Positions 4,552 to 51,726 of a stretch of 64,000 bases of DNA are shown here, in pieces (position 1 is the first letter of the stretch; each line of letters begins with the position of its first letter). The notes below the pieces were generated by a model, which was not told the DNA's origin, did not search any database, and saw only the letters and a program-made list of their open reading frames with translations. Source of the stretch: Spartobacteria bacterium (GTDB lineage: Bacteria > Verrucomicrobiota > Verrucomicrobiia > Chthoniobacterales > UBA10450); the NCBI GenBank assembly GCA_003169695.1, contig PNAS01000075.1, positions 1 through 64,000 of the forward strand, given 5' to 3'. The position numbers were made by a program, and so were the translations under genes.

Positions 4552-4569
4552 CACGATCGTCGGGCTACG

Positions 4570-5300: not shown

Positions 5301-5314
5301 TCGAACACGCCCTT

Positions 5315-6007: not shown

Positions 6008-6009
6008 GA

Positions 6010-7551
6010 TTATTTTATGCGCTTGAAAGTGAGTGGGTCGAGATTTTTCAGTCCATCCTTCGGATTGTCAGGAAATCCTGTCACGCCGAAGGATTGCTCG
6101 AATTGATAGATGCGCGTGCGTGGCCGTTCGCGAAACGGGAATGAGCGAAGATTGTCGCCATCGAGCGCATCCAAAGCGCCGGTTCCGCGGCACGCATTGA
6201 CCGCTAGAGCGTGGAGATTGCTTCGGGTTGCCGAAGCAGAGGCGATGCAGTTGGTAAGCTCGTCTGGATCTTCCTGGCGATGAAACAACTGTTCACGACC
6301 ACCGTTAGCCATGAAAATGTATTTCCACTCATCGGTCACCACCATGATCTTAAAATCATGCGAGCCGGGGGGTTCAGTCACGCCGATGAGAGATTTGCGC
6401 GGAGTAGACTCGCCTTGCACCAAGCCTAAGACATCAATTCCTTCACGCAGCTCGGCTCTTCCTCCCGCACGAGTCGCAATACCGAACAGATCGGCCAGAC
6501 TGATAAGATCGCTCTTGATTATTCCCGCCGGAAGCGTCGCGGGCCAACTAAGAAGGAGGGGAATATGGCAAGCAGCTTCGAAAAAATTTTGTTTCTGCCA
6601 GCCGTGATGATCACCAAGCAAGTCTCCATGATCTGAGAAAAAACAGATCAGAGTGTTTTGCGAATTGGATCCCGCCTCGACGGCGTCGAGAATCCGACCG
6701 ATGCAAAGATCTATATAAGAAATTTCGCCGTAGTAACGCGCCTTCACGATCCGTGAAAGGGGCAAATTAACTGCATCAGCCCAAATTGCGTAGCGCATGT
6801 AAGGAATTTCTTCGTCCATGTGATCGTGTTCGACACTCGCTAAAATCGGATCGGGCAAGCGGTCGGGATCGTACATGCGATTAAAAGGGATCGGAGGGGC
6901 GAGCGGCGGATGGGGACCAACGAAGGAAACAAAACCAAAGAACGGACGCTGGTTGTCCGTGTTTGCGATTTGCTCGACGACGCGATCGCCGACCCACGAT
7001 TCGACTCCCAACTCCGGTGGGAGCGGGCTTCTTTGCGGAATGTAATACATTTCCGTCCGTTCTCCCATGAGCTGTTCCAGGAAACTAAATTCCGGATGCG
7101 CCTGGTTCAGCCACGACGCGTAATCGTCTCCCGGCCGGCTAATCGCGTTGTAACTCTCTTCGCTCCGAAAGAATGCCTCGTATCCGAGATCTTCATCCCA
7201 CGGCGAAGTATGAAACTTTCCCACGCCAAAAGTCCGGTAACCAAGACGCGACATCGTGCGCGCTAGGTATTCCCCGCAACGGTTCTCCATCTTCTCGGCC
7301 CTGCCGCCGATGGGCTTCAGGCCCGCGTTATTAAAAACCCGAGTGGTAAGCGGTTCGCAGCCTGTTCGAATCGTATAGCGGGCCGCCACACAAACCGGAC
7401 AAGTCGCATAAGCATTTGAAAAGGTGACGCCACGCCTGATAAGGCGATCGAGGTTTGGAGTGTAGATATGTGAATTGCCAAGAGCGGCGATCGTATCGAA
7501 TCGCTGCTGATCCGTCATGATGAACAGAATGTCGGGCTGTGTCGGTGACAT
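6010..7551 (-). CDS. Sulfatase (alkaline phosphatase superfamily)
   Basis: The 513-residue hydrolase would cleave sulfate esters, probably from sulfated glycans. It opens with the metal-site segment DILFIMTDQQ (Asp14). The sulfatase signature is CVAAR at residues 54-58, a CxAxR variant of CxPxR in which the Cys becomes formylglycine, followed by YTIRTG. The second metal-binding stretch is FFSDHGDLLGDHHGWQK. No signal peptide is visible at this start, so it may be cytoplasmic unless a longer start exists. It starts five bases after the purC stop and ends two bases before the methyltransferase start, an operon-like arrangement. Regulation is not evident. Confidence 0.93.
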   Translation of the reverse strand: MSPTQPDILFIMTDQQRFDTIAALGNSHIYTPNLDRLIRRGVTFSNAYATCPVCVAARYTIRTGCEPLTTRVFNNAGLKPIGGRAEKMENRCGEYLARTMSRLGYRTFGVGKFHTSPWDEDLGYEAFFRSEESYNAISRPGDDYASWLNQAHPEFSFLEQLMGERTEMYYIPQRSPLPPELGVESWVGDRVVEQIANTDNQRPFFGFVSFVGPHPPLAPPIPFNRMYDPDRLPDPILASVEHDHMDEEIPYMRYAIWADAVNLPLSRIVKARYYGEISYIDLCIGRILDAVEAGSNSQNTLICFFSDHGDLLGDHHGWQKQNFFEAACHIPLLLSWPATLPAGIIKSDLISLADLFGIATRAGGRAELREGIDVLGLVQGESTPRKSLIGVTEPPGSHDFKIMVVTDEWKYIFMANGGREQLFHRQEDPDELTNCIASASATRSNLHALAVNACRGTGALDALDGDNLRSFPFRERPRTRIYQFEQSFGVTGFPDNPKDGLKNLDPLTFKRIK

Positions 7552-7556
7552 CTATT

Positions 7557-8459
7557 TCACGAACTTGAATCCTGAATGTCATTGCCAGTCAGTTGACGGA
7601 ATGCTTCCCGATATTTGGCGGAAGTTTTTTCGATCACGTCCTTCGGCAATCGCGGGCCTGGAGGTGTCTTGTCCCAGTCGAGCGTTTCGAGATAATCGCG
7701 CACGAATTGTTTATCGAAACTTGGCGGGCTCTTTCCCGGTGCGTAGCTGTCGGCGGGCCAAAAGCGCGATGAATCCGGCGTGAGACATTCGTCGATTAAC
7801 AACAACTCGTGATCGAAGCGACCGAATTCAAACTTCGTGTCGGCCACGATGATCCCGCATTTCGCGGCGTGCGCTCTGCCTGCTTCGTATATTTTCAGAC
7901 TCAGATCTTTGACGCTTTCCGCGACGCCGGTACCGAGCAGCCGGCAGCACTCCTTCCAATCGATGTTCTCGTCATGGCCGACATCGCTTTTCGTGGAAGG
8001 GGTGAAGATCGGCTCAGGCAATTGAGACGCGAGTTGCAAACCCGGTGGCAGCGTGACCCCGGAAATCGTTCCGCTTTCCCGATATTCTTTCCAGCCGGAT
8101 CCGGCCAGATAGCCGCGGACGACACATTCCACGGGAAGCGGCTGCGCTTTGCGCACGATCATTGAACGGCCGTGCAATTGCTCGTGAAACGGAGCAAGGT
8201 CGCGTGGGAATTTTTCGATGTCGGCGGTGATCATGTGGTTTCGCACAAACGTGAAACGCCGAAACCAAAACGCCGAAAGCTGATTCAAGACAGCGCCCTT
8301 GCCCGGAATCGGATCGGGAAAAACGACGTCAAAGGCGGAAAGCCGATCGGTCGCGACGAAAAGGAGCGTTTCGCCGAGGTCAAAGACTTCGCGGACTTTG
8401 CCGCTGCGGAGTTTTTTTATTCCAGGAAGATCGAGCGAAGTGATGGGTAATGGTTGCAT
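7557..8459 (-). CDS. purC: Phosphoribosylaminoimidazole-succinocarboxamide synthase
   Basis: The 300-residue cytoplasmic enzyme ligates aspartate to CAIR with ATP in purine synthesis. The family pattern is clear: KLRSGKVREVFDLGETLLFVATDRLSAFDVVFPDPIPGKG near the N-terminus, VVRGYLAGSGWKEY in the middle and ADTKFEFG later. I start it at ATG 8459 (MQPLPITSLDLPGIKKL), because the 18 further codons up to 8513 (MNVEHRTSNVDLNQ...) come from a dispersed intergenic repeat and have no family counterpart. It is divergent from rlmI, with about 60 bases between the starts, and leads the purC-sulfatase-methyltransferase strand. Length is normal for the longer SAICAR synthetase type. Confidence 0.95.
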   Translation of the reverse strand: MQPLPITSLDLPGIKKLRSGKVREVFDLGETLLFVATDRLSAFDVVFPDPIPGKGAVLNQLSAFWFRRFTFVRNHMITADIEKFPRDLAPFHEQLHGRSMIVRKAQPLPVECVVRGYLAGSGWKEYRESGTISGVTLPPGLQLASQLPEPIFTPSTKSDVGHDENIDWKECCRLLGTGVAESVKDLSLKIYEAGRAHAAKCGIIVADTKFEFGRFDHELLLIDECLTPDSSRFWPADSYAPGKSPPSFDKQFVRDYLETLDWDKTPPGPRLPKDVIEKTSAKYREAFRQLTGNDIQDSSS

Positions 8460-8477
8460 GCGATGTCGGGTCTGATT

Positions 8478-8516
8478 CAAATCAACGTTGGACGTTCGGT
8501 GTTCGACGTTCACCCT
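8478..8516. repeat. ACGTTCGA-type dispersed repeat
   Basis: The segment AACGTTGGACGTTCGGTGTT followed by CGACGTTCA is made of near-tandem GTTSGACGTTC units between the divergent starts of purC and rlmI. Related stretches occur at 12103-12136, 20606-20632 and 38224-38240. When read in frame they give N- or C-terminal residues such as VEHRTSNV and KRETSNARL. Confidence 0.65.
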
Positions 8517-8521
8517 TCGCT

Positions 8522-9700
8522 ATGGCCGGCCTTGTCGTCAAACCTCGCGCGCGAATTTTGCATGGCCACGACTGGGTGTTCTCCGGAGAGGTCCTCAAGG
8601 CATTTGGAAATCCCGCCGATGGTGACGTTATTTCGCTGAAAGATGGAAGAGACCGCCTGATCGGCAGCGCGATTTATAACAGCAAATCGCAGATCGTCGC
8701 GCGGCGATTCTCGCGGCGGCGGCAGGATCTCGACCTCGATTTTTTCAAACGCCGGATTGCGCAAGCGATGGATTATCGGAAGCGGCGCGGCATCGACCCG
8801 CGACTATGCCGCGTTGTCTGGAGCGAGAGCGATGGATTGCCCGGTGTGATCGTCGATCGCTACGGAAATCACGCGGTCTTGCAAACGCTGACGCTGGCGA
8901 TGGATATGCGAAAGAGTCTGATTCTGGAGGCGTTGAAGGCGGCAGGCGAGGCGCCTGCCCTGCAATCAATCATCGAGCGCAACGACGCTCCGGTAAGACG
9001 GGCGGAAGGGATGGAGCTACAGAGCGGAGTCTTGATGGGAGAACCGCCGGGCGAAACGGAAATCGAGATCGCTGGCTTGCGCCTCATTGTCGACCTCTTG
9101 CACGCGCAGAAGACGGGCTTCTACCTGGATCAATTGGCGCATTACGAAACCATCGCACGCCATGCGCACGGGCGACGCGTCCTGGATTGTTTTACGAATC
9201 AGGGCGCATTCGCGCTCGCTTGCGCGCGGGCGGGCGCATCGAAGGTAACCGCTGTGGAAGCGAGCGCGGAAAGTATCGCGAGCGCGCAGCGAAACGGAGC
9301 GCGCAACAAACTGCGCGTCGACTGGATTGAACAAGACGTATTTCAATTCGTGCGCGCGGCGGAGAAAACCGAAGCCGAATACGATCTGATTATTCTCGAT
9401 CCCCCTTCTTTCACGAAAACGAAAGGCGGATTGCACGACGCGTTGCGCGGCTATCGCGAGCTGCACGTGCGGGCATTCAAGCTCCTCTCGCGCGACGGAG
9501 TACTCGCAACTTTTTCCTGCTCGCATCACGTGAGCGAATCCCTTTTCTACCAGACGATTGCGGACGCGCTGGTCGATGCACGCCGGTCCGCCCGCAGGCT
9601 GTGTCGTTTCGAGCAAGCGCTCGATCATCCGGTCCTTCCAACGTTGCCCGAAACAGAGTACTTCAAGGGCGTGCTCCTCGAGATGATGCCCGGCAGATGA
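8522..9700 (+). CDS. rlmI: 23S rRNA (cytosine-C5)-methyltransferase, RlmI family
   Basis: The 392-residue cytoplasmic enzyme should methylate a cytosine of 23S rRNA (C1962 in E. coli) using SAM. An N-terminal PUA-like domain (AGLVVKPRARILHGHDWVFSGEV) is followed by the RlmI central domain. The SAM motif is RVLDCFTNQGAFALACARAGA, then VTAVEAS. The m5C motif IV is LIILDPPSFTKTKGG, with the catalytic Cys in FSCSHHVS. I start at ATG 8522 because the 24 codons upstream read through the dispersed repeat. The C-terminus (EMMPGR) also survives as a damaged copy at 12233-12333. A second methyltransferase follows on the same strand. Confidence 0.93.
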   Translation: MAGLVVKPRARILHGHDWVFSGEVLKAFGNPADGDVISLKDGRDRLIGSAIYNSKSQIVARRFSRRRQDLDLDFFKRRIAQAMDYRKRRGIDPRLCRVVWSESDGLPGVIVDRYGNHAVLQTLTLAMDMRKSLILEALKAAGEAPALQSIIERNDAPVRRAEGMELQSGVLMGEPPGETEIEIAGLRLIVDLLHAQKTGFYLDQLAHYETIARHAHGRRVLDCFTNQGAFALACARAGASKVTAVEASAESIASAQRNGARNKLRVDWIEQDVFQFVRAAEKTEAEYDLIILDPPSFTKTKGGLHDALRGYRELHVRAFKLLSRDGVLATFSCSHHVSESLFYQTIADALVDARRSARRLCRFEQALDHPVLPTLPETEYFKGVLLEMMPGR

Positions 9701-23743: not shown

Positions 23744-26700
23744 TTATTCTTGAATTTCTATTTTCCCCAAACCCGCGGCCTCAAGCTGAGGATTCAGCGC
23801 GGGAAGGTCCTGCGATTCGATCGCTCGCCATCGCTGAACTATGGATTCTGATTCGCGTTGAAGATCGGCGATGGCGGCTAGGACCGCAAGCGTGGGCGCG
23901 GCATCGACTTCCTGGATGTTCCCAAACAGCGTCCCTAGTCTTTCCAAGAGATCCAGGCTGAGCGCGGCACTCGCTCGACGGCTCGGCGGACCGGCGATCT
24001 CCTGTAATTTCTTGTTCAGCGCATCGAGCTGCGCCGCCACTGGATTTTGCCCGGCGCGTTCTTTCGCTTTTCCGAGTTCCGTGCTCAATCGGCTGAGGCC
24101 GTTGTTTACCGCTTCAAGCGTCGGGCGGATTTCATAGAGTTCTTTGCTTAGCTCAAACTGTTGCGCCAGGTCCGCCGTCGAAGTTTTCACGCGTGGATCG
24201 ATTTTCACGGAGAGCGGTTGTGCGTAGCTTTTTCCATTCATCGTTAAGACCACCGAGTAATCGCCCGGCACTACCCAGGGTGAAGTCGATTTGGGCGCCG
24301 TGTGGCGATAGACCGCTGTCATCGGATATTCCGGCTCGATGCCGGGAATAGGTGCGTAATGCATGTCCCACAGAAAACGGTGCATCCCGCGCTCGTTGGG
24401 CAATGTTTGCTGCGGCCGCACCCAATAAGCTGGAATCTTTAGTTTCGGGTCGATGGGCGGGGCTGCGTCCACGCTAGAATAGCGCCGTACCACATTCCTT
24501 TTCCCGTCCTTGATCTCCAGCGTAATCGCGCCGGACGCGTTCTTGCCCAAATAATAATCAATCATCGCACCGTCCGGAGGATTCTCGCCGGCGGGCTCAT
24601 CCGGCGGTATGGGCGTGTCTGTGTTCAAGCTCGATCGCACGCGCAACGCGGTTTGCGGTTTGAAGAGAATCGATTCTTCATTGCCCGTTTCGAGCTGCCG
24701 CAATGGTGTGATGTTATCCAAAATCCAAAATCCGCGCCCGTGCGTTGCCACCGCGATGTCGTCTCCTTTGATGATCAAATCTCTGACGGAAGTCGCGGGC
24801 ATATTCAACCGGAAAGGCTGCCAGTTTTCACCGTCGTCCAACGAGATGTAAACAGCCCGCTCCGTTCCCGCGAACAACAAGCCTTTTCGCTGCGTGTCTT
24901 CGCGCACGACGTTCACGGTTTGTCCGCCAGGAATGCCTTTCACGATTTCGCTCCAAGTCTTGCCGCCATCATGGGTCCGGTAAATGTGGGGACGCATATC
25001 GTCGAGCCGGATGGTGTTCACTGCGGCGTAGGCTGTGTTGGCGTCGAAATGTCCGGCATCGACCAGGGAAATCTTTTGCCAGGCGGAAATCTGCGGCGGC
25101 GTAACGTCCGTCCAATTTTTGCCGCCGTCGGTCGTTGCATGAATCAATCCGTCATCCGTGCCGGCCCAGATTCGCTTCGGATCGAGCGGCGAAGGTGCGA
25201 CGGTGTAAATCACGCCGCGCGGCGTCGGTTGCGCGGTTGGTTGTGAACGATACTTTCCGACTGTGGCCGGAATTTCAAAAGTCTTGCGCGTCAAATCCTG
25301 GCTGATTTGCTCCCACGCCTGTCCGCCATCGCGCGTTCTCCAGAGTGTGTTTGCGGCAAAGAAAAGAACATGCGGATCAACCGGCGAAAAAACCACCGGC
25401 TGCGTCCGCAGCATCCGAAACTCGGAAGAGGGAAACGCGTTCGGCAGGATGTTTTGGGCTTGTCCGGTGCGGCGATCGTAGCGCGTTAGTTTACCGCCGT
25501 AGACGATATCCGGATCGACCGGATCAGGCGCGACGTATCCATATTCTTCCGCCGCGACTGGATGCCAGTCCCGAAAAGTAATCTCACCGTCTTGACCGCG
25601 GCTCGAAATGCAAACCGAACCACTTTCCTGCTGCCCACTGCACAAACGATACGGAAAAGCGTTATCCGCGCTGACGTGATAGAGCTGCGCGGTGGATTGA
25701 TTGAACCATGAACTCCAGGTTTCGCCGCCGTTGACGGTGATGATCGCGCCCTGGTCGCTCCCGAGCAAAATAATGGAGGTATTGTTTGGATTTACCCAGA
25801 CGTTTTGATAATCGTCGCCCCCGGGCGCCCCGCGTAAACCGTTCCACGTTTTGCCGCCGTCAGTTGATTTCCAGCAAACGACAGTCGCGGAATAAACGAT
25901 GCTTGCGTCCTTTGGATCGAATCGCACCACGGGCAAATCACCGCCTCCGATTGCCAGTCCTGGACGCGAATCGGTAGTGGCGACGAACCAATTCTCGCCG
26001 GCGTCGTCGGATCGATAAAGCCCCGCGCCTTTCGCCGTGCCGACCGCGGCGAAAAGACTCTTGGGCGAGCGCGGAGCCACGGCGAGATTTGCCTGAACGA
26101 TCCCATCAGGCAGACCTTTGCTGAGCTGATTCCAGGTCTTCCCGCCGTCGATTGATTTGAAGATTCCGCCGTTGCCGCCATTCCAACCTCCATTTTCCCA
26201 CGGGCCTTCTCGCGCCTCCCACAGCGAAGCGTAAACGGTTTCTGGATTCGCCGGATCAATCTGCACGTCCGCGCCGCCGGTGTTTTCGTCGCGGTAAAGA
26301 ATCTTCTCGAAGGTCTTGCCTCCGTCGGTTGAACGAAAAACGCCACGTTCTTCGCTCGGGCCATAGGGATGACCGGCGACAGCAACAAAAACGCGATCAG
26401 CATTGCGCGGGTCGACGGCGATTTGCGAGATCTGCTGACCGTCACGCAGGCCAAGATGCGTCCAGGTCCTGCCCGCGTCACTCGATTTGTAGATGCCGTC
26501 ACCCACCGATAAATCGGGACGGTGCAAACCTTCGCCACTGCCGACGTAGATTATCTCAGGATTGGAATCCGAAACGGCGATCGCTCCGACTGAACCGGTC
26601 GGTTGGTCGTCGAAGATCGGTTGCCAGGTCCGACCGTAATCCGTCGTCTTAAAAACACCGCCGTTGACCTGCGCGATATAAAACACATTGGGCTGCGAAG

Positions 26701-26890
26701 GGACGCCGGCAACAGCTCGTGTTCGTCCGCCGCGGAACGGCCCGATGTTGCGCCAATGCAATGCTTGTTTGAAATCCTGATTGAGTTCAGCCCTAGCTAT
26801 CGCCAGATGGCCTAGGGCAAACGCAAAAATAACAAGCCGGAACAAAGCGGTTTCTGTTCGTGAAAAAAAATGCCGGACTTTCGCATCCAT
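23744..26890 (-). CDS. Large secreted sortilin/VPS10-type beta-propeller protein
   Basis: The 1048-residue protein begins with a basic stretch and a hydrophobic segment (ALFRLVIFAFALGHLAIARA) that should act as a signal. Repeated Asp-box/BNR motifs then build one or two propellers: GGVFKTTDYGRTW, GIYKSSDAGRTW, GVFRSTDGGKTF, GIFKSIDGGKTW, GLYRSDDAGENW and more up to about residue 690. A C-terminal part (about 720-1048) has DGAMIDYYLGKNASGAITLEI and a helical tail. Such proteins are common in Verrucomicrobiota and Acidobacteriota and often labelled glycosyl hydrolase, but no catalytic residues can be assigned. Separate from its neighbours; the upstream serine hydrolase is divergent, with 62 bases between starts. 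Confidence 0.88.
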   Translation of the reverse strand: MDAKVRHFFSRTETALFRLVIFAFALGHLAIARAELNQDFKQALHWRNIGPFRGGRTRAVAGVPSQPNVFYIAQVNGGVFKTTDYGRTWQPIFDDQPTGSVGAIAVSDSNPEIIYVGSGEGLHRPDLSVGDGIYKSSDAGRTWTHLGLRDGQQISQIAVDPRNADRVFVAVAGHPYGPSEERGVFRSTDGGKTFEKILYRDENTGGADVQIDPANPETVYASLWEAREGPWENGGWNGGNGGIFKSIDGGKTWNQLSKGLPDGIVQANLAVAPRSPKSLFAAVGTAKGAGLYRSDDAGENWFVATTDSRPGLAIGGGDLPVVRFDPKDASIVYSATVVCWKSTDGGKTWNGLRGAPGGDDYQNVWVNPNNTSIILLGSDQGAIITVNGGETWSSWFNQSTAQLYHVSADNAFPYRLCSGQQESGSVCISSRGQDGEITFRDWHPVAAEEYGYVAPDPVDPDIVYGGKLTRYDRRTGQAQNILPNAFPSSEFRMLRTQPVVFSPVDPHVLFFAANTLWRTRDGGQAWEQISQDLTRKTFEIPATVGKYRSQPTAQPTPRGVIYTVAPSPLDPKRIWAGTDDGLIHATTDGGKNWTDVTPPQISAWQKISLVDAGHFDANTAYAAVNTIRLDDMRPHIYRTHDGGKTWSEIVKGIPGGQTVNVVREDTQRKGLLFAGTERAVYISLDDGENWQPFRLNMPATSVRDLIIKGDDIAVATHGRGFWILDNITPLRQLETGNEESILFKPQTALRVRSSLNTDTPIPPDEPAGENPPDGAMIDYYLGKNASGAITLEIKDGKRNVVRRYSSVDAAPPIDPKLKIPAYWVRPQQTLPNERGMHRFLWDMHYAPIPGIEPEYPMTAVYRHTAPKSTSPWVVPGDYSVVLTMNGKSYAQPLSVKIDPRVKTSTADLAQQFELSKELYEIRPTLEAVNNGLSRLSTELGKAKERAGQNPVAAQLDALNKKLQEIAGPPSRRASAALSLDLLERLGTLFGNIQEVDAAPTLAVLAAIADLQRESESIVQRWRAIESQDLPALNPQLEAAGLGKIEIQE

Positions 26891-35637: not shown

Positions 35638-38046
35638 TTACGGGGCCCCGTTATCGTAAACTTCCACCAGGCCGACACCAGTGCCGTCATCCAGTCCCGC
35701 AAGCAGCGCCGTATAAGCACCCGGCGGCAACGTCGCCGCTATGGCGGACTCCAGATCGTTGCCCGGCGCAAGTCCCGCCGCGGTGATTTCCGCCGCTTGC
35801 GCTGCGTTATCCTGCCAGTCGTCATCGGAGATGAGCAGCGTTCCGTTGCTGTTGCGCAACTCCAACGTTGGATTGGCCAGCGCATCAGGCACCCCGAACG
35901 CAATGAGACTGGGACCCAGTCCGCGAATTATAACTCTGTCGTCGCCCCCCCTGTTCCCCAGCGTGAAGCCCGCGATCACGATGTCGCTTCCTGTCCCGCA
36001 GAACGCGCGCGTGCTAATATTGCCCAGTTTCGAGAGAGCGGCCTGATCAAGGTCATAAACTTCAACCAAGGCGACACCCGAGGTGTTATTCTTGCCTCTC
36101 ACGATCGCGGTATACGCTCCGGGAGCTAAGGTGGCATCAATCGCTGATTCGAGATTATTGGTCGGCGGGATGCCGTCGGCTATGATCAGAGCTTCCTGCA
36201 TGGGGTCGTCTCTCCAGTTGTCGTCCGTGATGGTGACAAATGCGCCGGGACCGTGCAGCTCCAGCACCGGGTCAGCGAGCGCGTCGGGGACACCGAATTG
36301 TGCCAGCGAAGGTCCAATGGCCCGGAGGAGGACATGTTTCGGAACGGTGCCCGTGATGATGAAGCCGCCGATGCCAACATTATCACCGGTCTGAACCAGG
36401 ATGCGCGTCGAGAGGTTGATAGCCTGCGCCGCCGACGCCGGTGTTGGTGTCGCTGTGGGCGTAGCCGTCGGTGTTGTCGTGGGTGTCGGACTCGGTGTTG
36501 CGGTTGGGGTTGGACTCGGTGTCGGAGTTACAGTTGGAGTTGGAGTCGGTATTGGGGTCGGCGTCGGCGTTGGCGTCGAAGGAGTCGGTGTGGCTGAGGG
36601 TGTCGGAGTAGGTATTCCCCCAGGAGTGACGCGAACGTAATAAATATCCTCCTCGAGATTAAACGTGGCGGTATACGCGACATCGCCTCCGGCATTGTCG
36701 GAAACGATTGTGATGTAATCGCCCATCTTGTTCTGAGCCGGATAACCGAGGAAGGGGTTGAACGAATTGCTCACCACCACGTTGGGCGACCACGTATCGC
36801 CTGCGTCCGTGCTGAAAGAATAGAAGAGCTGCGAATCGGTATTGTTCGCGGCGTTCCGCGTGTCCAGCCAAACGGAATCAATCCGCCCATTCGGCGCGAC
36901 TGAAAGCGTGCCGAGCCAGTGCCATTTGTTGTGATTAACAGGATCGTCGTTGACCCGCTTGGGGGCGTTGAAGGTTTGTCCGCTGTCTGTGCTGCGCACG
37001 AACATGACGTCGCTCCCAGTGTTGAAGCCGGTCGGCTGCACGCTCGCCATCATGTAAACATTGTTATTAGAACTGGTGCCCGAACGATCCGCCACCAGGA
37101 AAACCTGCCCGATCAGTCCTTCCGGATTTATCGTATCAAAGTAATCGATAACGCCGCCCATGTTGACTGCGGTGCTTTGGTCGAAACTGGGTGTCACGGC
37201 CCCGTTCTTTGCATTGGTCGAACGAAGGCACCAAAACTGGGTCAAGGAAGTGGTTACGCCGCCGAAAAAGAGGTTGCCGTTCGAGTCCACGTCGGGCGTT
37301 CCCCACTGGGGAGCGTTGGGAATGGTGATCGGATTCATCCAGGTGAACCCGCCGTCGGTGGAACGGCTAAATTCCCCGGGAGCGTAAGGGCTGGAGTTAT
37401 CCCAAAACTGGTATTGGAATCCGTGACCGGTGCTGGTCGGGTTATTGTCAATTGCGAACCACTGCTTGTCGCCCCCCTTGGCGGGTGCAATGTTCGTGAA
37501 AGTCTGGCCGCCGTCGAGCGAGCGCCAGAGGGTGACGTCAAATGTCTCCAAAAGGCTGAGAAAGAGGAAACGCCCCGTGTCATCGGAGCGCAACACCGGG
37601 TCGCTCCGGAAAACGTTGTTCTCGAGCACGCCCGGGAAAGTCCAGGTCGCACCGCCATCGCTGGTATATCCATAGCCGCCCTGCCGGAAGTTGGAAGTAA
37701 CGCTATCGAACTGCCTCCAACCGATTACCATCCTATTGTGGTTGGTGGGGTCCACGCTGATAGACGGCTCGTTCGCCGCGTCGCCCGTGGTGTTCTGTCC
37801 GCTCCCGTTGACGTTGACCTGATGACTTATGAAGGGGCCTTCCTGCGAGACCATTCCGGGCGAAACTCCTATTCCCCACAACGGGGACGGAGCGGGCGGA
37901 TTGTCGTATTCTTCGAGTGGCTCGGTCGGAAGTGGCTTCTTCGGCGCGGTCTGGCCTGAAGCGAAAGCAGTTGCAAGCAGGAAAACCAGACAAGTAAAAA
38001 AGCTCGCCTTCGACACTCTAAAACACCTCAAGCTGAATACGAGCAT
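35638..38046 (-). CDS. Secreted sialidase-like propeller protein with PT linker and paired C-terminal modules
   Basis: The 802-residue protein has a signal peptide ([19 protein letters not shown]). A propeller with Asp-box-like motifs covers residues 60-480 ([59 protein letters not shown]). A Thr/Pro-rich linker of about 60 residues follows, with many TPTP units. Two copies of a module of roughly 115 residues close it; each has IGG/IAGF, a [16 protein letters not shown] stretch, DD.W.D, and LESAI.ATL.PGAYTA. The catalytic Arg triad of true sialidases is not evident. Probably a surface or secreted binding protein. The same C-terminal module survives as scraps at 30231-30627. Confidence 0.87.
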
Positions 38047-38629
38047 CGTATAACATAGATCAACATCGACCGGGCGTCCGGCGAATTTCTCGACGTTCGC
38101 CGCAATTCACTTTTCGGTTTCGAGTGTGTCTTGGTCATTCTGCCATTCGAAGATTTGAATTTGTTTCGGATTTCGCGATTCGAATTTTCCGAAATTGTAG
38201 AGCCGGCCTTGCCGTCTCCCTCTTCATTCGATGTTCGACGGCGCCAGGCTGCGAAAAAGGCCGAACGCGTTTCCCTCGCGGACATCTACGACGCGGTGGA
38301 ATCCCCGTCGGTAATTCTCGTCAACGAACGCAAAGCGTTAAAGGAGTGCCATGTGAGCTTGCAATATGAAGAGCATCATGAGCCGCGTGGCCCAGAGCAC
38401 CAAGCAGGCCGTCAGAAAACACCTGACCGGCATCACCCTGGCCCAACTCGTCCGCAAAGTGTGCGTTCAGGACAAGGCGATTCGTTCCAAACGTTGATTG
38501 GAAACGCCCGCTTCCATTTTCGACAATTGTCGCAGTCTGGCGTCGTTCGATTTCCGCGACGACCACCGGTAACTGAATGTTAGATGTTTAGACGCGACGC
38601 GACCCCATCCCCCCGCTGGAGCAATGCTC
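38047..38629. other. Gap with dispersed repeats and a possible small ORF
   Basis: The left part (38130-38200) is low-complexity TTTCGGATTTCGCGATTCGA-type sequence, typical of intergenic repeats. A frame from ATG 38366 to TGA 38497 encodes 43 basic residues (MKSIMSRVAQSTKQAVRKHL...) with no clear ribosome site. I rate it as unlikely but cannot exclude it. The right end carries a GTCGCGTCTAAA motif copy and a GGAGCAATGCTCC hairpin overlapping the RNase H stop codon. Confidence 0.5.
38587..38606 (-). repeat. GTCGCRTCTAAA repeat, left of the defence-like cluster
   Basis: On the minus strand GGGGTCGCGTCGCGTCTAAA and then CATCTAACATTCAG resembles GGGGTCGCATCTAAATATTT at 42640-42659. A third copy lies on the minus strand at 42789-42800 (GTCGCGTCTAAA, identical 12 bases). 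Confidence 0.6.
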
Positions 38630-39448
38630 CTACGCCGAGCGAGGCACGATTACGGGTGCGATTTCCTCAATGATCCGTTCAATAATCGGATACTGCGGAT
38701 TCGCGTTGAACGAAACACGATAGGAATGGTGCCGGTGTAGATCCACAGCTACCTCCGCGGACGTAAAAGCGGACGCTTTTTGTAGGACTTCCCCAGATTG
38801 CTCATCACAGACTTCGAAATAGATCTTGTGGTCGGATCGGCCCAGCAAGCGAGTACGATAGATTCGTATCAGAACTTCTTGACCGTGGGCTGCAAACAGT
38901 GACGCGGCACGTTTGGAGCCTGCCTTCGATCGCCCAACCTTTCCGGGTCTGAATCCACGATCAACGCTCCAAGGCTCAGATGAGGCGGCCTTGGCCGATT
39001 TGTCGACAGCCTTTAATATCAGCGACTTTTTGCCGAGCATCCATTTCAGCTCAGTCCGCACCTTGACCTTACCGCGAAGAGACAGAAGATTTTTCCAGAG
39101 GTCGCGATTTTCAACCGGCCTCCCCTCAAGGTTTCGCCACCCGTTTTTTCGCCACTGCTCGGCAAGAAAAAAGCAGTCGTGAACGTACTTCGAGTCGGTG
39201 ACAATCTGTACTCGTTCGACCCGCAAATCGTAGCCCTGTTTGCGCACGTACTCGAATGCCCGAATGCATGCCAGCAGTTCCATTCGGTTATTTGTAGTTT
39301 CTTGAAAGCCTTCCTGAAACAGCGGTTCATCGGGACAATTCCAATCGCTCGGAAACTCGACCCAAGCCGCCAGGCCCCCGGCACCTCCCGGATTGTCTTT
39401 AGCAGACCCGTCGATGTAACTTTTGAGAGCGTGCGGGTCGAGCGACAT
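38630..39448 (-). CDS. RNase H family nuclease with C-terminal extension
   Basis: The 272-residue protein has an RNase HI fold in residues 8-155, with the acidic residues in place: Asp13 (YIDGSAKD), Glu57 (NNRMELLA), Asp85 (VTDSKYV) and Asp149 (KAVDKSAK). It should cut RNA in RNA-DNA hybrids. The rest (about 180-272), IRIYRTRLLGRSDHKIYFEV... to IIERIIEEIAPVIVP, is a separate domain I cannot name, absent from housekeeping RnhA. It lies 124 bases downstream of the ATPase/TOPRIM gene on the same strand and may belong to that operon. The stop codon falls inside a short palindromic repeat. Confidence 0.9.
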   Translation of the reverse strand: MSLDPHALKSYIDGSAKDNPGGAGGLAAWVEFPSDWNCPDEPLFQEGFQETTNNRMELLACIRAFEYVRKQGYDLRVERVQIVTDSKYVHDCFFLAEQWRKNGWRNLEGRPVENRDLWKNLLSLRGKVKVRTELKWMLGKKSLILKAVDKSAKAASSEPWSVDRGFRPGKVGRSKAGSKRAASLFAAHGQEVLIRIYRTRLLGRSDHKIYFEVCDEQSGEVLQKASAFTSAEVAVDLHRHHSYRVSFNANPQYPIIERIIEEIAPVIVPRSA

Positions 39449-39572
39449 CGTTTAGCTCTACATTAGTCTTTTCTCGCTCGTTCTCCCATGATTGTGAAAT
39501 CACTAACGCCATGGCGGATGACTTTTTAGTCGTACTTCCTAGGTTGCGGGAAAAATGGTGTGCAGGTGAACG

Positions 39573-41294
39573 CTATTTCAACACAAATTTTACGAATCCG
39601 TCGGTGAAACTTCGCGCTTCGAGCAATTCTGCATCGGCATCCAGGTCCCTCGTTTCAAGGACAGCATTGACCCAGCTCGGTCCGTGTCCTCCTACATTCT
39701 TGTCAAAGCATTCCAGTTCACCAACCGGCACCACAAAAAGACCCTTCGCAGCCAATTGACCAACCAGGCGCCCGTACGCCAAAGTCGCCTCCCCTGGGGG
39801 CACATATACCTTTCCCAAAGATTTCGCGAGAGACCACGGTGAACTCTGGCGCAATATTTTTCGGATGTTATCCGCCGCTCCACTCGGGAAAACGGTTTCT
39901 GTAACCGTGTTAAGCTCGATCGAGATGTCTTTGACAACTGCTTCTGTATTAAGCTCGGGTCTCTTGGAATTAATTGCCCCCGTTACAGACGTCCAATCTT
40001 TTTCGATCACCGCCCAAATCCCGCCGCAACTCTCGAAAATCCTTCGAAGTACCGGCTCGTCTCGCAAAACATCAAAATCCACAACTGCAGCGAATGGAAC
40101 GTCTAACGCAGCGAGGGCGTTGATTACCATCGCAATTCGATCTTTTCCGCCGCAATGCGTGAACATCAAATCGCGTTGCGGCTGATCCTCCCTTCCACGT
40201 TTTCTGTCAGCTATCGCGGCGTAAAAGCGACAGTCTGAATCGCTCTCACAGATCACGACGCCCTGATGAAACACCGCATCCAATATATTCGAGTAGTGAA
40301 GCAAGGAATCCTTCCACACTTTCTTCACTGCGGACTTGTCAAGGACACGAACGGGATTCTTCCCGTTACTTCGCCGAACTCTCACCACGTGAACATTTCC
40401 TTTATCGCGATCGAGTAGTCCCTTAAGAAAATCCCCGCTGTGCGTTGCACAAAACATCTGGGTAGCTGCCGGTAGCTCCGCTGCCAACATCTTGCCGAGG
40501 ACTCTCGCCTGGGGTGGGTGCAAAAATGCCTCCGGCTCATCTACAAGCAACACATCTCGGGGATTCAAGAGTGCGTATAATACAACTCCTACAAAGCTCT
40601 TTACCCCGTCCCCTTGTAAATCAACCCTATCTAATGTCTCAAGCTTTTGCGCATAAGATAATGAAGCGCGATCCTCAGGCTCCTCGAGCTTGGGGCTAGT
40701 TCCGCAGTACAGTGGCACATTACTGCCGGCATTCCGATGTACGATAAGATCTTTGTCGAAGGCCTGACGAAAAAACCCACTAACCCTCTTTTCCTCCTCG
40801 TCATCTCTCTGCATTACATGAATCGGATGCTTGGGATGCTCAACAGTAAGCTGAATGTTGGGCGGTGGGGCGCACGCTCCGAGTCGCGCCTCCGTTGTGA
40901 GCAGCGTACATAATACGTTGCGAAGACCACTCAGCTTGCCGGTCCACCAGGAACTCGCCTGTGATCTATGCAATTGATACCCCATTCCCGAATAAATAGG
41001 GTTGGGGTCTTCCGGGTTCCTGACGATCGACTCCCTTTCGAAATAAGCGACAATGTCCTCGCTTGTTCCGTGTCGCTCTAGTTCAAGTGACGTGATGACA
41101 GTGGCAGGCGGAGGGTCGGGAGCATTGGCAACTGCCTCGTAGATTTCGGCTAGTGCCACACTCTTCCCAGAATTGTTGGGTCCTACGAGCGCGACGATAT
41201 CTCCAGCTCCAAACGAGAGTCGTGAACCGTCACTAAACGTAACGCTCGTTATAGTGATTCCCCACTGTCTCTTAGATTCTACTTCAGGCTCCAT
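39573..41294 (-). CDS. OLD-like AAA/ABC ATPase with C-terminal TOPRIM nuclease domain
   Basis: The 573-residue protein combines an SMC/ABC-type ATPase with a TOPRIM domain, the layout of OLD-family nucleases. Visible motifs are Walker A GPNNSGKS (38-45), a signature-like LQGDGVKSF (about 227), Walker B DVLLVDEPEAFLHPPQ (about 247-262) and the switch His in CATHSGDF (285). The TOPRIM part has Glu350 (VVICESDSDCRFY) and an acidic pair in VVDFD (406-408), expected to hold metal for DNA or RNA cleavage. It follows the HEPN gene after 66 bases on the same strand. Relatives occur in phage-defence and toxin-like systems such as Gabija and PARIS, but this is not their gene arrangement. Confidence 0.9.
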   Translation of the reverse strand: MEPEVESKRQWGITITSVTFSDGSRLSFGAGDIVALVGPNNSGKSVALAEIYEAVANAPDPPPATVITSLELERHGTSEDIVAYFERESIVRNPEDPNPIYSGMGYQLHRSQASSWWTGKLSGLRNVLCTLLTTEARLGACAPPPNIQLTVEHPKHPIHVMQRDDEEEKRVSGFFRQAFDKDLIVHRNAGSNVPLYCGTSPKLEEPEDRASLSYAQKLETLDRVDLQGDGVKSFVGVVLYALLNPRDVLLVDEPEAFLHPPQARVLGKMLAAELPAATQMFCATHSGDFLKGLLDRDKGNVHVVRVRRSNGKNPVRVLDKSAVKKVWKDSLLHYSNILDAVFHQGVVICESDSDCRFYAAIADRKRGREDQPQRDLMFTHCGGKDRIAMVINALAALDVPFAAVVDFDVLRDEPVLRRIFESCGGIWAVIEKDWTSVTGAINSKRPELNTEAVVKDISIELNTVTETVFPSGAADNIRKILRQSSPWSLAKSLGKVYVPPGEATLAYGRLVGQLAAKGLFVVPVGELECFDKNVGGHGPSWVNAVLETRDLDADAELLEARSFTDGFVKFVLK

Positions 41295-41360
41295 CTCGTC
41301 GTCGCTAACGCGCTATACAAAAAAGGAAATGACGAGGAGGCTGTCTGATCGCATCTCGGC

Positions 41361-41930
41361 TCACGGAGCAATAACTCTGAACCAATCCCGCATGACCTGC
41401 CTAATACGATCAAGTTCTTCCTCAGGGATGTCAGTCATGTGTGCAACCGTATTGCGTAGATGAGTAATCAAACGCCCCTCAGTCAGAAGCGCCTTATCGC
41501 GCAGCAAATCCGCGAAGCCCTTGTCCCAACATGAATCGATGACGCGCAACAGCTGAGGAAATGTCATCAACGCAGATTTGTCTCGCGAACCGAGTGCCAT
41601 CCAAGCTTTTATTTCCTCCGTACTCTCAAGCCGTCCCACCTCGTTTTGGACGTCCATCGGTACCAGGTCCCACCAATTACCTTGGCCTGCAGCTTTTGAG
41701 AGAACCTCGACGATGAGTTCTCGCAAGTAGTTCTCGAAAATAAAAAACAACCGATATGCCATCGCTGCACGCGAAGCCCGCCTTGCGTCCTCCGGAAGTG
41801 ATCGAGCGATGTCGTATGTGGGTCCAAGTAGGATCGGTTCGCTCGGCGCGGTGGATGGCTCCTTCGCAACGGCTCGCTCGGCGCTCTGGCCCAATAGGAG
41901 GAAAAGGGCTAAACGATCGTCCTGCATCAT
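41361..41930 (-). CDS. HEPN-domain protein, Swt1-like
   Basis: The 189-residue, mostly helical protein ends with the HEPN signature RNTVAH (Arg159 to His164, the R-x4-H motif) inside LITHLRNTVAHMTDIPEEEL. A preceding helix (AMAYRLFFIFENYLRELIVEVL) matches the packing helix of Swt1-type HEPN proteins. HEPN domains with this motif commonly act as metal-independent RNases in toxin, abortive-infection and CRISPR-associated proteins, so an RNase or RNA-binding role is inferred. Its start overlaps the stop of the DUF5343 gene by four bases (ATGA), showing tight coupling. The ATPase/TOPRIM gene follows. Confidence 0.8.
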   Translation of the reverse strand: MMQDDRLALFLLLGQSAERAVAKEPSTAPSEPILLGPTYDIARSLPEDARRASRAAMAYRLFFIFENYLRELIVEVLSKAAGQGNWWDLVPMDVQNEVGRLESTEEIKAWMALGSRDKSALMTFPQLLRVIDSCWDKGFADLLRDKALLTEGRLITHLRNTVAHMTDIPEEELDRIRQVMRDWFRVIAP

Positions 41931-42538
41931 CTGAATACTTTCCTTACTGCTTCGAATATATTGATGTACGTATCTTCGGTTCCGTTGGCAGGCAGATGTA
42001 TCTGAATGTTGTAATGAAACTCTGGGCGTAAGCGGCCACGTTGTTGCTGCTGATCGTCCCCAGTTTCGTCCTTCGTCCCGGAGTCTTCCCCGGTTTCTTC
42101 CTCCAGTTTCGGCGCTTCGCCGAACTTGGCCAGCTTTAGGAGAGCACCCAGCGTAAAAGCGATCCTCTTTGTCATCCCTTCATCCGTTCCAGCCACCTGA
42201 GCGATTAATCCTCGTAGTTCTTCCGGCGACAACGCGTACGCCTTTTCATTAGATGCAAAAAGGGGTGCATACGCCCGGCGAACTCCAGCACCGATCGCGA
42301 GCGCAGCGCGTGCCGGGTTTTTCAGTGCGTCGTATTCTGCCGTTGGCTTTCCCGACGCGTCTAAAAAGCCGAGCGTTTTGAGAAGCGCTATTAGCGGCCG
42401 GTCTCCGGCACTCTTCAAACCGAGAGTGTCGGCTAGAAATCTTGTCGTAAATGAGTCCGGGCGTTTCGCGCTAGCAATGTTCCTAAACAGTTTTTCCAGA
42501 TTCTTGTACGACGCCAAGTAGGGCAGTTCTGAGGGCAT
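41927..42538 (-). CDS. DUF5343 family protein
   Basis: The 203-residue protein resembles DUF5343: an N-terminal LPYLASYKNLEKLFRNIASA, a winged-helix-like DSFTTRFLADTLGLKSAGDRPLIALLKTLGFLD, then NPARAALAIGAGVRRAYAPLF. After a Glu/Gln-rich linker (about 145-165) it ends with FHYNIQIHLPANGTEDTYINIFEAVRKVF, a strand-helix end found in that family. Such proteins probably bind DNA or a partner as the regulatory or recognition part of two-gene HEPN modules; this is inference. It has a ribosome site (AAAAGGAAA) and overlaps the HEPN gene by ATGA. First well-supported gene of the cluster. Confidence 0.82.
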   Translation of the reverse strand: MPSELPYLASYKNLEKLFRNIASAKRPDSFTTRFLADTLGLKSAGDRPLIALLKTLGFLDASGKPTAEYDALKNPARAALAIGAGVRRAYAPLFASNEKAYALSPEELRGLIAQVAGTDEGMTKRIAFTLGALLKLAKFGEAPKLEEETGEDSGTKDETGDDQQQQRGRLRPEFHYNIQIHLPANGTEDTYINIFEAVRKVFR

Positions 42539-49481: not shown

Positions 49482-50921
49482 CTACGGCGTTGACGTTTCC
49501 GTCTCCGCCGGATCGAGAGCGACGTCGACGTTGCTCGCACTCGCTCGCGCTCCATCCGTGAGCTCGCGCTGCTTGCGGCCGAGCGAGCGTCCCACGAAAA
49601 CCCACACGCCCGCGATTGGAATGGTCAAGAACGCGATCGCCGCGAGGCTTGCGCCGACGGCTTGGATGCCCATGAACGCCCAGGCCCCGAGGCAATCGCC
49701 GAGGCGATAGATGAAGGTGTCGACGAAGCTCTTGGATTTGTACTTCACCTCGCGCTCGACGACGGTGTAGAGAGCCTCGCGCGCCGGTTGCGCGGTGGCA
49801 AAGTTGCTGATGCGGAGCAGGATTTGCACGCCCGCGAGGACGGCCAACTCCGGCGCGAGCTGGCCCACGGTGAACCCGCGCGCCCCGAGCCAGGGCCCAT
49901 AGATCATCGCCAGCGACAGTGCGATCCATCCGAGCACCGCGATCGCCGGCTGCGAGATCAGCGCAAACGTGATGCCGAACCAACGGATCAGGCGAGCCGT
50001 GAGCAGAAGTTGGATGAGCACCGTGCCGAGCTGCACCCAGAACTCGATGTTAGCAAAGTACTCAGTGCGCACGTCGCGATCGTGAATGGTGAGATCGACG
50101 AGCTTGCCCTGTTGGTAATACAGGAACGTTCCGATCAGCCCGTACATGAACGTGTAGCTCGCGATCCAGCGCAGATAGCTCTGGCTGACGATGAGCTTCA
50201 AGCCACGCCACATGTCCGCCGTCGAGATGGCCGCTGGCGGCGGGGCGTTTTGTCCTGGCGGTGCCGCATCGATACGATGGATGACGACGAGACGGCGCAC
50301 ACTGAAGACCGCGACCTCGAGCAGGACGATCGACAGAAAGAGCAGATTCACACTGCCGATCGGCTTCGCGAGCAAGCTCGCGATCTTCGAGCCAGCCAGC
50401 GCACCGAGCGTTCCGCCGACGCCGATGAAACCAAAGAGCCGCTTGGCCTGGTCGAGGCGCCAGATGTCGGCCATGAACCCGCGGAACACGGAGACGACGA
50501 ACAGGTTGAACACACTGAACCAGATGAAGAACGTGTACGCCGCCGCGAGCTTGGAGCTCTCCGGCAGGAACTTCAGCGCCAGCCAGAACGCGAGCAGGCA
50601 CGCGATCGAAACCCGGTAGACGATCGGAATGAACCGCTTGCGTGGCAGTTTTGTCACAAGCAGCGCGAAGGGCGGGCTGACGACCACCATCGCGACGAGC
50701 GTCCCCGTGAAGAGCCACGGGTATTTATCGGCGCCGCCGTTCAAACCCATCGAGTCGCGCAGCGGTCGCAGCACGAACGTGCTCGCGAGCAGGCTGAAGA
50801 AATAGAGCCACGACCACGCGATTGAGCGCATCTCCCTCGGTTCGATGGCCACGACGCGCTGCAGTGCGCGCACAAACGCACCGGTCTGCGCTTCGTCCGC
50901 ATCGTCGTCGTTCACGCTCAT
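49482..50921 (-). CDS. NTP/NDP-exchange-transporter-like membrane protein
   Basis: The 479-residue protein has about eleven hydrophobic segments and opens like ATP/ADP translocase-like proteins: MRSIAWSWLYFFSLLASTFVLRPLRDSMG, then GVGGTLGALAGSKIAS and, late, RYKSKSFVDTF-like KYKSKSFVDTFIYRLGDCLGAW. These are conserved in the Npt1/TLC-related free-living bacterial group, whose substrates are mostly unknown. Start at ATG 50921 (MSVNDDD) with GGGAG nearby. Base composition looks more G/C-rich than the neighbours, hinting at transfer. It overlaps a truncated paralogous ORF by ATGA. Confidence 0.82.
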   Translation of the reverse strand: MSVNDDDADEAQTGAFVRALQRVVAIEPREMRSIAWSWLYFFSLLASTFVLRPLRDSMGLNGGADKYPWLFTGTLVAMVVVSPPFALLVTKLPRKRFIPIVYRVSIACLLAFWLALKFLPESSKLAAAYTFFIWFSVFNLFVVSVFRGFMADIWRLDQAKRLFGFIGVGGTLGALAGSKIASLLAKPIGSVNLLFLSIVLLEVAVFSVRRLVVIHRIDAAPPGQNAPPPAAISTADMWRGLKLIVSQSYLRWIASYTFMYGLIGTFLYYQQGKLVDLTIHDRDVRTEYFANIEFWVQLGTVLIQLLLTARLIRWFGITFALISQPAIAVLGWIALSLAMIYGPWLGARGFTVGQLAPELAVLAGVQILLRISNFATAQPAREALYTVVEREVKYKSKSFVDTFIYRLGDCLGAWAFMGIQAVGASLAAIAFLTIPIAGVWVFVGRSLGRKQRELTDGARASASNVDVALDPAETETSTP

Positions 50922-51034
50922 GAATAACTCCCGAGGACGACGAAGTTGAAAACGAAGGCGAGGCCGAGCGCGCGCAGCTCGTCCGGCTTCACGTCGACGG
51001 CGCGCTGGCGCAGAGATGTAAGGATGCCGTTCAT
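50918..51034 (-). pseudogene. Truncated transporter paralogue N-terminus
   Basis: A 38-codon frame from ATG 51034 encodes MNGILTSLRQRAVDVKPDEL then RALGLAFVFNFVVLGSYS. It looks like the N-terminus of the same transporter family (V..RP.E.RAL..AF.YFF.VL..YY). The stop TGA overlaps the start of the full-length transporter (ATGA). Its own start overlaps the rhomboid stop (ATGA). It probably marks an internal deletion in a former tandem pair and may still be translated. Confidence 0.78.
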
Positions 51035-51726
51035 CTGGAACTCGAGGCACGAGCACCGGCGAGCACCGGCGAGACTGCATTCAAAGGGAGCACGAGTGCA
51101 ACTGCGGTCCCGACAACCAAGCCGACGACATGCCCGATCATGGTAACGCGTGGTAACACTGAGTAGGTTAGTCCCAAGAAGAGCGGGACCAGGAGACGGA
51201 GTCGAACCAAGCGACTTTGTGAGGGAAGCCTGAAGACCAACACGAGCCCGGCCCCCAGGAGGGCAAATAGTCCGCCCGACGCGCCGAGCGAGACGCCCTG
51301 CGAAGGCCAGAACAGATGTTTCATGAGGATCCCTGCGCAGCTCGCCACCGATCCGCCCAGAAAGATGAGGAGGAGCGACGCGGTCCCAGCGCGGAGTTCG
51401 ACAACGGGTCCGACCAAGAGCAACAGAAGAGTATTGAGCGCGAAATGTGTGAGATCGTAATGTAAGAACCCGGCCGTGAGCAGACGCCAGTATTCGTAAT
51501 GAATCTGACCGCTATCGGGTAGAGCGCCGAGGCCAAGGAGACCCGCATCATTTCCGGCTGCATTTCTCGCGAGTTCGAGGAGGAACGTCGTGCTCATAAC
51601 GCAGAAGATGGCTACCGATCCGAGATAGGTGCGCATGGGGCTTGAGTGTAATGGATACCTAACGCGAACAAGATCAGACACGGGTGGTGAGGGCAAGTGT
51701 GCCTCTTTTTTCATCAATCCAAACAT
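51031..51726 (-). CDS. Rhomboid family intramembrane serine protease
   Basis: The 231-residue protein (or about 201 residues from ATG 51636) has six membrane helices. The rhomboid active site is present: Ser in VSLGASGGLFALLGAG and His in VTMIGHVVGLVVG, preceded by HYEYWRLLTAGFLHYDLTHFALN with the conserved WR and H.N region. It cleaves transmembrane substrates within the bilayer. Which start is used is unclear; the 51636 start (MRTYLGSVAIF) is close to the first helix. Its stop overlaps the truncated transporter leader, so rhomboid, leader and transporter form one coupled transcript. Confidence 0.92.
   Translation of the reverse strand: MFGLMKKEAHLPSPPVSDLVRVRYPLHSSPMRTYLGSVAIFCVMSTTFLLELARNAAGNDAGLLGLGALPDSGQIHYEYWRLLTAGFLHYDLTHFALNTLLLLLVGPVVELRAGTASLLLIFLGGSVASCAGILMKHLFWPSQGVSLGASGGLFALLGAGLVLVFRLPSQSRLVRLRLLVPLFLGLTYSVLPRVTMIGHVVGLVVGTAVALVLPLNAVSPVLAGARASSSR

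Follow-up and report, generated by a model that had tools for sequence, protein, structure and literature searches.

A DUF5343-HEPN gene pair beside an OLD-like ATPase gene and an RNase HI gene in a Spartobacteria contig: probably a composite region

Do four closely spaced genes on one strand, all suggestive of phage defence, make up one system? The question is raised by positions 42538-38630 of a Spartobacteria bacterium contig (PNAS01000075.1, assembly GCA_003169695.1), whose first 64,000 nucleotides were analyzed and are called the window here. A reading of this DNA made without database searches (the sequence-only reading) had described four minus-strand genes as a candidate defence operon, and open reading frames were found at those places. 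Gene A (42538-41927) encodes a DUF5343 protein of 203 amino acids (aa); gene B (41930-41361), which overlaps A in an ATGA, a Swt1-like HEPN protein of 189 aa; gene C (41294-39573) an OLD-like ABC ATPase of 573 aa with a C-terminal TOPRIM domain, of the Class 1 (single-gene) type; and gene D (39448-38630) a protein of 272 aa with a ribonuclease (RNase) HI domain followed by a C-terminal domain of about 100 aa. Our answer, which we hold at a probability of roughly 0.8, is that the region is a composite of the A-B pair, catalogued as PDC-M34, a stand-alone OLD-like C, and a separately moving RNase HI gene, D. C and D are neighbors that lie outside the conserved A-B module, and they are best read as two separately acquired nucleases. 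Reading the region as a composite keeps a false four-gene system from being named.

The domain assignments of the sequence-only reading held up. A matches DUF5343 (Pfam PF17278, E 2e-33) and B matches HEPN_Swt1 (PF18731, E 6e-13, 49.5 bits against a cut-off of 27.5), with an intact R159-N-T-V-A-H164 and the ATGA coupling to A. C matches AAA_21 (E 2e-11) and OLD-like_TOPRIM (27 bits, cut-off 23.2), and its Walker A (GPNNSGKS), Walker B (LLVDEPE), and TOPRIM residues (E350 and D406-F-D408) are all present. D matches RNase_H (E 2e-18) and has the four acidic residues (D13/E57/D85/D149, from an alignment to solved RNases HI), with no Pfam match for its C-terminal part. Given four significant family matches and an A-B coupling that recurs in other phyla, the four-gene arrangement is far beyond chance. 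In PADLOC-DB 2.0.0, A matches PDC-M34A almost from end to end (PDLC04589, E 1.2e-47, residues 1-200), and B matches PDC-M34B in its HEPN part (PDLC04592, E 2.6e-22, residues 47-187).

The composite reading is carried mainly by recurrence. A DNA pattern for the conserved tail of A, which makes only tail-bearing A genes visible, was scanned over 84,980 species genomes and returned at least 119 stretches. Hidden Markov models (HMMs) for A and B were trained on the window together with the first 80 loci and then run on all 119 listed loci, where A was found in 88, B in 84, and both in 81; for the 39 listed loci outside HMM building, the corresponding counts were 30, 29, and 28. Six A loci without B (L044, L072, L089, L091, L109, and L122) stop 45-134 bp past A, and the seventh (L097) holds an A remnant of 82 aa with no B in the next 1.2 kb. 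Three loci have B only (L038, L087, and L133), with B starting at most 120 bp from the locus edge, and the 28 with neither gene were taken as chance matches. The gap between A and B lies between -8 and +11 bp in 47 of the 51 loci parsed by phmmer, the other four representing alternative starts or a fusion. On a Tsukamurella pseudospumae contig (L086, 5601-6788), DUF5343 and HEPN form one open frame of 396 aa; this was the only fusion noticed and could be an assembly error.

Neither C nor D shared in this recurrence. The D HMM had no match in any of the 119 listed loci, and the C HMM had no clear match in any of the 88 with A; a C match at 1e-16 (L043) fell in a locus that has neither A nor B. 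No other gene family was shared by more than 4 of 59 loci drawn from the first 80. In the six closest relatives among those 80 (L025, L035, L060, L065, L070, and L081), the overlap of A and B is a single base. All six lack D and a clear C, and the sequence of L060 stops inside B. All three viral loci found to encode A also have B, none has C or D, and one (L326) adjoins a gene whose translation reads as terminase-like. Since A-B is conserved without C or D, while C and D occur apart from A-B, we reject the four-gene system. The check that the sequence-only reading had suggested, for conserved four-protein neighborhoods and for linkage of the RNase H, thus came out against a four-part unit, with only A-B recurring. 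That reading had also known of no named system in this gene order; the four-part order itself is unsupported, and A-B alone is already a PADLOC candidate. A conflict or defence role stays plausible for A and B and, separately, for C.

The two genes of the pair also diverge together. Distance matrices for A and B correlate at 0.895 over 45 loci, where the largest value in 2000 shuffles was 0.18. A tree of 49 B proteins spans 15 phylum-level groups and places the window with five Pseudomonadota at 100/100, in a subclade set off by a long stem (2.54 changes per column). The closest Pseudomonadota proteins among the loci listed are 49-55% identical to the window's A (six proteins) and 55-59% identical to its B (five proteins). 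Because its B groups with Pseudomonadota proteins, the window pair probably arrived by lateral transfer. The GC content is 0.51-0.54 over A to D, but alike in the next gene, and 0.55-0.61 further out.

The pair was also looked for among the window's own relatives. Across a sample of 387 genomes of the phylum, the PDC-M34A model found only the window and a weak A-like fragment of 57 aa in genome G068, which comes without B and was set aside. Across 83 genomes of the family, it found the window, the congener G388 (4e-66), G414 (1e-65), and a 35-aa piece in G420, which the A HMM built here missed and which was likewise set aside. In G388 and G414, B overlaps A by one base and carries RNVIAH and RNIIMH, respectively, and both proteins are 27-36% identical to the window's. 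No C or D lies near A-B in the 11 kb available for G388 or the 8 kb for G414, with 8.1 kb of room downstream of B in the former and only 1.2 kb in the latter. The window pair is of another subtype than these two, and near relatives have the pair without C or D. As G388 (locus L330) and G414 (L331) carry other A-B subtypes, the family took up the module more than once.

What might the pair do? The catalytic motif of B, R159-NTVA-H164 (41439-41456, minus strand), keeps its R and H invariant in all 49 aligned B proteins, which are full-length proteins chosen for alignment. An Rx4H near the C-terminus is present in 80 of the 84 B frames among the listed loci; the other four are two frames cut by the locus edge (L060 and L110), one short frame (L031), and one with a lengthened tail (L116). 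HEPN domains with an intact Rx4-6H are described as predicted RNases of defence and stress systems in the accessible text of PMC3710099. The predicted model of B (predicted local distance difference test, pLDDT, 89.7) has HEPN toxins as its top structural neighbors in VIA (7ae9, Z 8.4; 6m6u, Z 8.3). Yeast Swt1 follows at Z 6.9, and many HEPN proteins stand in the top rows; helical bundles score high by chance, and the Swt1 value is near that level.

The most conserved element of A is its C-terminal tail, YNIQIHLP-x7-Y-x2-IF (41954-42013, minus strand), in which Y176, N177, I178, L182, P183, and F195 do not vary across the 45 A proteins aligned; most of these were retrieved by the DNA pattern for that tail, and so the conservation comes partly from selection. 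An alignment mixing A, B, and the fusion placed the tails of A on those of B and was discarded. In the predicted model of A, which like that of B is of a separate chain, the first 140 residues are all-helical, the model as a whole has no strand of three or more residues, and confidence is low only in a linker at about 141-170. A VIA fold search gave Nt.BspD6I as the best neighbor (Z 6.1), winged-helix repressors at about 5, and ROQ domains at about 4, a range that may be chance. Searches for A on mobile DNA also produced candidates that we rejected. Rhizobium plasmid matches to A (48 of 50 records, E 6e-3 or weaker) were judged chance, being unannotated or under an alpha/beta hydrolase gene, with one inspected. 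Viral scans with the DNA pattern for the tail returned one and four loci, none of which encodes an A protein, and single-protein scans of viral sequences with A found no relative.

Based on these features, A-B is best read as a HEPN RNase held back by DUF5343, in the manner of a toxin-antitoxin or abortive-infection system, a mechanism that we infer. B would most likely be a metal-independent HEPN RNase toxin that uses R159 and H164. A would most likely be its co-translated partner, binding B and keeping it inactive, perhaps through the conserved tail. A phage or stress cue would then free B, and the resulting cutting of RNA could lead to abortive infection or dormancy. The conserved tail of DUF5343, together with the natural fusion, points to a testable manner in which A might hold the HEPN toxin. 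The pair is also a sharper target: it spans many phylum-level groups, keeps its RNase motif, and rides viral contigs, yet the names DUF5343 and PDC-M34 were not met in the literature searched.

Several observations weigh against our reading of the region and of the pair. All four genes lie on one strand with spacings of 66 bp (B to C) and 124 bp (C to D), and a scan of the locus found no terminator-like site between A, B, C, and D, so that co-transcription of A to D is possible; the promoter scan of the locus found none. Two listed loci have a distant ATPase near A-B (L056, C HMM 5e-7, and L065, 4e-6). Some loci are too short to show C and D (among the 91 listed loci with A or B, at least 1.5 kb is available downstream in 65, at least 2.5 kb in 54, and at least 4 kb in 36), and the pattern scan sees tail-bearing A only. 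As to the proteins, Foldseek with the A model and with the B model gave no match at E<=0.001, every VIA Z for A is below 8, and the winged-helix resemblance is weak. Defence enrichment around the pair is also weak: 148 PADLOC models matched among 148 A-B neighbors, compared with 58 among 117 controls. The neighbors are those scanned out of 155 selected (six over 900 aa and one beyond the size limit were dropped), and two proved to be B proteins; the controls are 117 of 122 proteins from unrelated pattern loci (five from L097 were dropped), which come from other hosts with defence genes of their own. Finally, two PADLOC candidates of other kinds gave no defence activity in their host, according to the accessible part of PMC12409345.

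The alternative that survives best is that A and B are simply a toxin-antitoxin or addiction module that plays no part in phage defence and is spread by selfish maintenance. A two-gene overlap, a conserved RNase motif, and a patchy distribution would all fit such a module, as would the HEPN-MNT toxins that are the best structural matches of B, and the weak defence enrichment among neighbors points the same way. Against it, PADLOC picked the pair as a phage-defence candidate, the pair occurs on viral contigs (in one case beside the terminase-like gene), and single neighbors match the strong defence models PtuA, ZorD, DpdE, and PDC-M01. We consider this alternative possible, with the balance tilted clearly away from it.

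Far less probable is a lineage-specific unit of A, B, and C, in which the OLD-like protein would have become the sensor of the HEPN pair in this one genome. The gap of 66 bp between B and C with no terminator-like site fits such a unit, and, as C is confined to the window among 83 family genomes and the family-mates do not show an A of the window's type, the three genes may have arrived together. Yet of the closest relatives, the five whose sequence continues downstream (L025, L035, L065, L070, and L081) have no clear C, L060 ending in B, and in the congener G388 an A-B pair of another subtype is followed by an unrelated gene. The least probable reading is the operon of the sequence-only reading itself, in which DUF5343-HEPN would cut RNA, the OLD-like C would cut DNA in a nucleotide-dependent manner, the RNase H would remove hybrids, and all would be needed: it draws on nucleic-acid enzymes encoded on the same strand with short gaps and no terminator-like site, and on the joint presence of C and D in the window genome, yet is largely refuted by recurrence, with no D and no clear C in 88 listed A loci, G388 and G414 keeping A-B with neither C nor D close to it, C relatives without A or B in all 46 viral and all nine plasmid or phylum loci, and D without A to C in G394 and G056.

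We therefore keep to the composite reading and take C and D in turn. C is predicted from its sequence to be an OLD-like ATPase/nuclease of Class 1 type that stands alone; plasmids and prophages carry members of its family too. Its TOPRIM residues E350 and D406/D408 (40071-40247, minus strand) are invariant in eight of eight aligned homologues, and the family has a conserved C-terminal GE-x-E motif of its own. In PADLOC, C matches 'Old' (3e-21) and, on the ATPase part, AriA (4e-14) and weakly the fused AriAB (6e-7). Relatives occur in four of the 387 phylum genomes, counting the window's own (27-34% identity; one of them is partial), and in one of the 83 family genomes, the window only. Seven plasmid records hold relatives at 25-31% identity, four of them covering at least 80% of C; of six records inspected, two are split into two frames. 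Another 46 viral loci hold relatives at 24-42% identity, and in 13 of these an integrase gene lies immediately upstream with a gap of -1 to +19 bp. The HMMs for A and B matched none of the 46 viral and none of the nine plasmid or phylum C loci. A cultured-phage collection gave no match to C at 1e-5, and an initial single-protein scan of viral sequences with C found no relative. Class 1 OLD genes are single genes, and the P2 old locus is a site for anti-phage cargo, as described in the accessible text of PMC10568477. Because C relatives are single genes and are integrase-adjacent in 13 of the viral loci, C behaves as a Class 1 OLD.

Two side observations concern this family and its neighbors. 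In two of the viral loci whose C genes abut an integrase (L178 and L180), nearby translations look P2-like, which would make them a cargo spot like P2 old. In L065 (Stenotrophobium, 1-2446), an ATPase gene is followed by a UvrD/RecB-like gene about 4 kb from A-B, with a recombinase-like gene in between; this order is Gabija-like.

D is an unusual RNase H. The NF001236 equivalog model scores it at 84.5 bits, under the cut-off of 160, and PADLOC has no match to it. The His-bearing motif of the catalytic loop is lost in D and in the copy of the congener G394, and is kept in the relative from G056. An RNase H match was found in 76 of the 387 phylum genomes, but only the window and G056 match there through the C-terminal domain, for which plasmids and viruses gave no relative. 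G394 holds a third full-length copy at 71% identity, so that this domain was seen in three genomes only. None of ten further genomes from the window's order within the 387-genome sample gave an RNase H match, and six other genomes of the genus gave no D match at 1e-5, which is not proof that RNase HI is missing from them. That D belongs to a defence system with A, B, and C did not hold up: in G394 none of the three lies within 16 kb of D, and in G056 none lies beside it.

In G394, D stands divergently beside a type II-A retron-like cassette and an HNH gene (L321, contig stretch G394:C25:22000-38000, at 4448-8532). The HNH gene matches at 4e-15, and the cassette's matches are to an NDT_II-A-like protein (3e-13), the N-terminal part of the model for the type II-A reverse transcriptase (RT_II-A; a small gene, 0.0015), and RT_II-A itself (9e-79). 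A gene-free stretch of about 200 bp precedes the reverse transcriptase gene, and no retron noncoding RNA was identified in the cassette. Among eight genomes of the genus, only G394 gave an RT_II-A match, and only G394 and one other have D. According to PMC8989520, retrons need the RNase H1 of their host to produce their DNA. It is conceivable, at long odds, that D represents a small island-borne RNase H family, with its own C-terminal domain, that supplies RNA-DNA hybrid processing to defence systems. This reading would have most genomes of the lineage lacking a similar RNase HI, and the D of the window would then be a remnant or would work for a different hybrid-dependent defence. It draws on a single co-occurrence, and the window genome has D and no RT_II-A-model match. 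D beside a retron-like cassette is the one unusual lead in a mostly ordinary region, and a cheap one to follow for the question of RNases H that travel with defence islands.

Other features of the window are reported as observations in their own right. Just downstream of D, at 38133-38461, stretches of about 35-55 bp and about 220 bp recur in this and other family genomes; the stretch is 84% identical to one at G000:C74 and may be a dispersed repeat. Two long BNR/Asp-box repeat proteins are encoded at 35638-38046 and 23744-26890, the former with a long TP-rich low-complexity stretch and the latter with Sortilin-Vps10 matches. At 49482-51080 there is a match to TLC ATP/ADP transporters (E 2e-9), a family often linked to intracellular bacteria.

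Set against known systems, D resembles ribonuclease HI in its RNase H domain and four catalytic acids and differs in the lost loop His and the extra C-terminal domain. C resembles Class 1 OLD proteins (P2 Old; TsOLD, 6p74) in combining an ABC ATPase and a C-terminal TOPRIM in one chain and, in its relatives, in being a single gene adjacent to an integrase in 13 of the 46 viral loci; its similarity to TsOLD is weak (E 2e-6). The other OLD classes were rejected. The genes flanking C encode the HEPN protein and the RNase H, and the scanned flanking genes show no helicase or reverse transcriptase. Gabija (Class 2) would have an adjacent UvrD-like helicase, GajB, which C, flanked by B and D, does not have. 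For a retron OLD (Class 3), the window genome gave no RT_II-A match and the window no Rfam family at gathering score. In PARIS (Class 4), AriA and AriB are separate, whereas C is one chain with its own TOPRIM and its Ari matches fall below 'Old'.

For the pair, the Swt1-like/Abi2 HEPN family of PMC3710099 shares with B the HEPN_Swt1 match, the intact Rx4H, and the structural likeness to yeast Swt1, whereas the partners described in the accessible text are ATPases, helicases, transmembrane proteins, and restriction endonucleases, with no DUF5343 partner named there. HEPN-MNT (type VII) toxin-antitoxin systems are likewise two-gene modules with a small HEPN protein, and they provide the closest solved folds for B; membership was rejected, with A matching DUF5343 only and no nucleotidyltransferase, and its model consisting of helices only. 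The closest likeness is to PDC-M34 itself. The window stands in a separate B subclade and the PADLOC library gives no mechanism for the pair, whereas both profiles match, the gene order is the same, and the genes overlap. By its profile matches, A-B is thus a member of a candidate pair already catalogued in PADLOC-DB 2.0.0.

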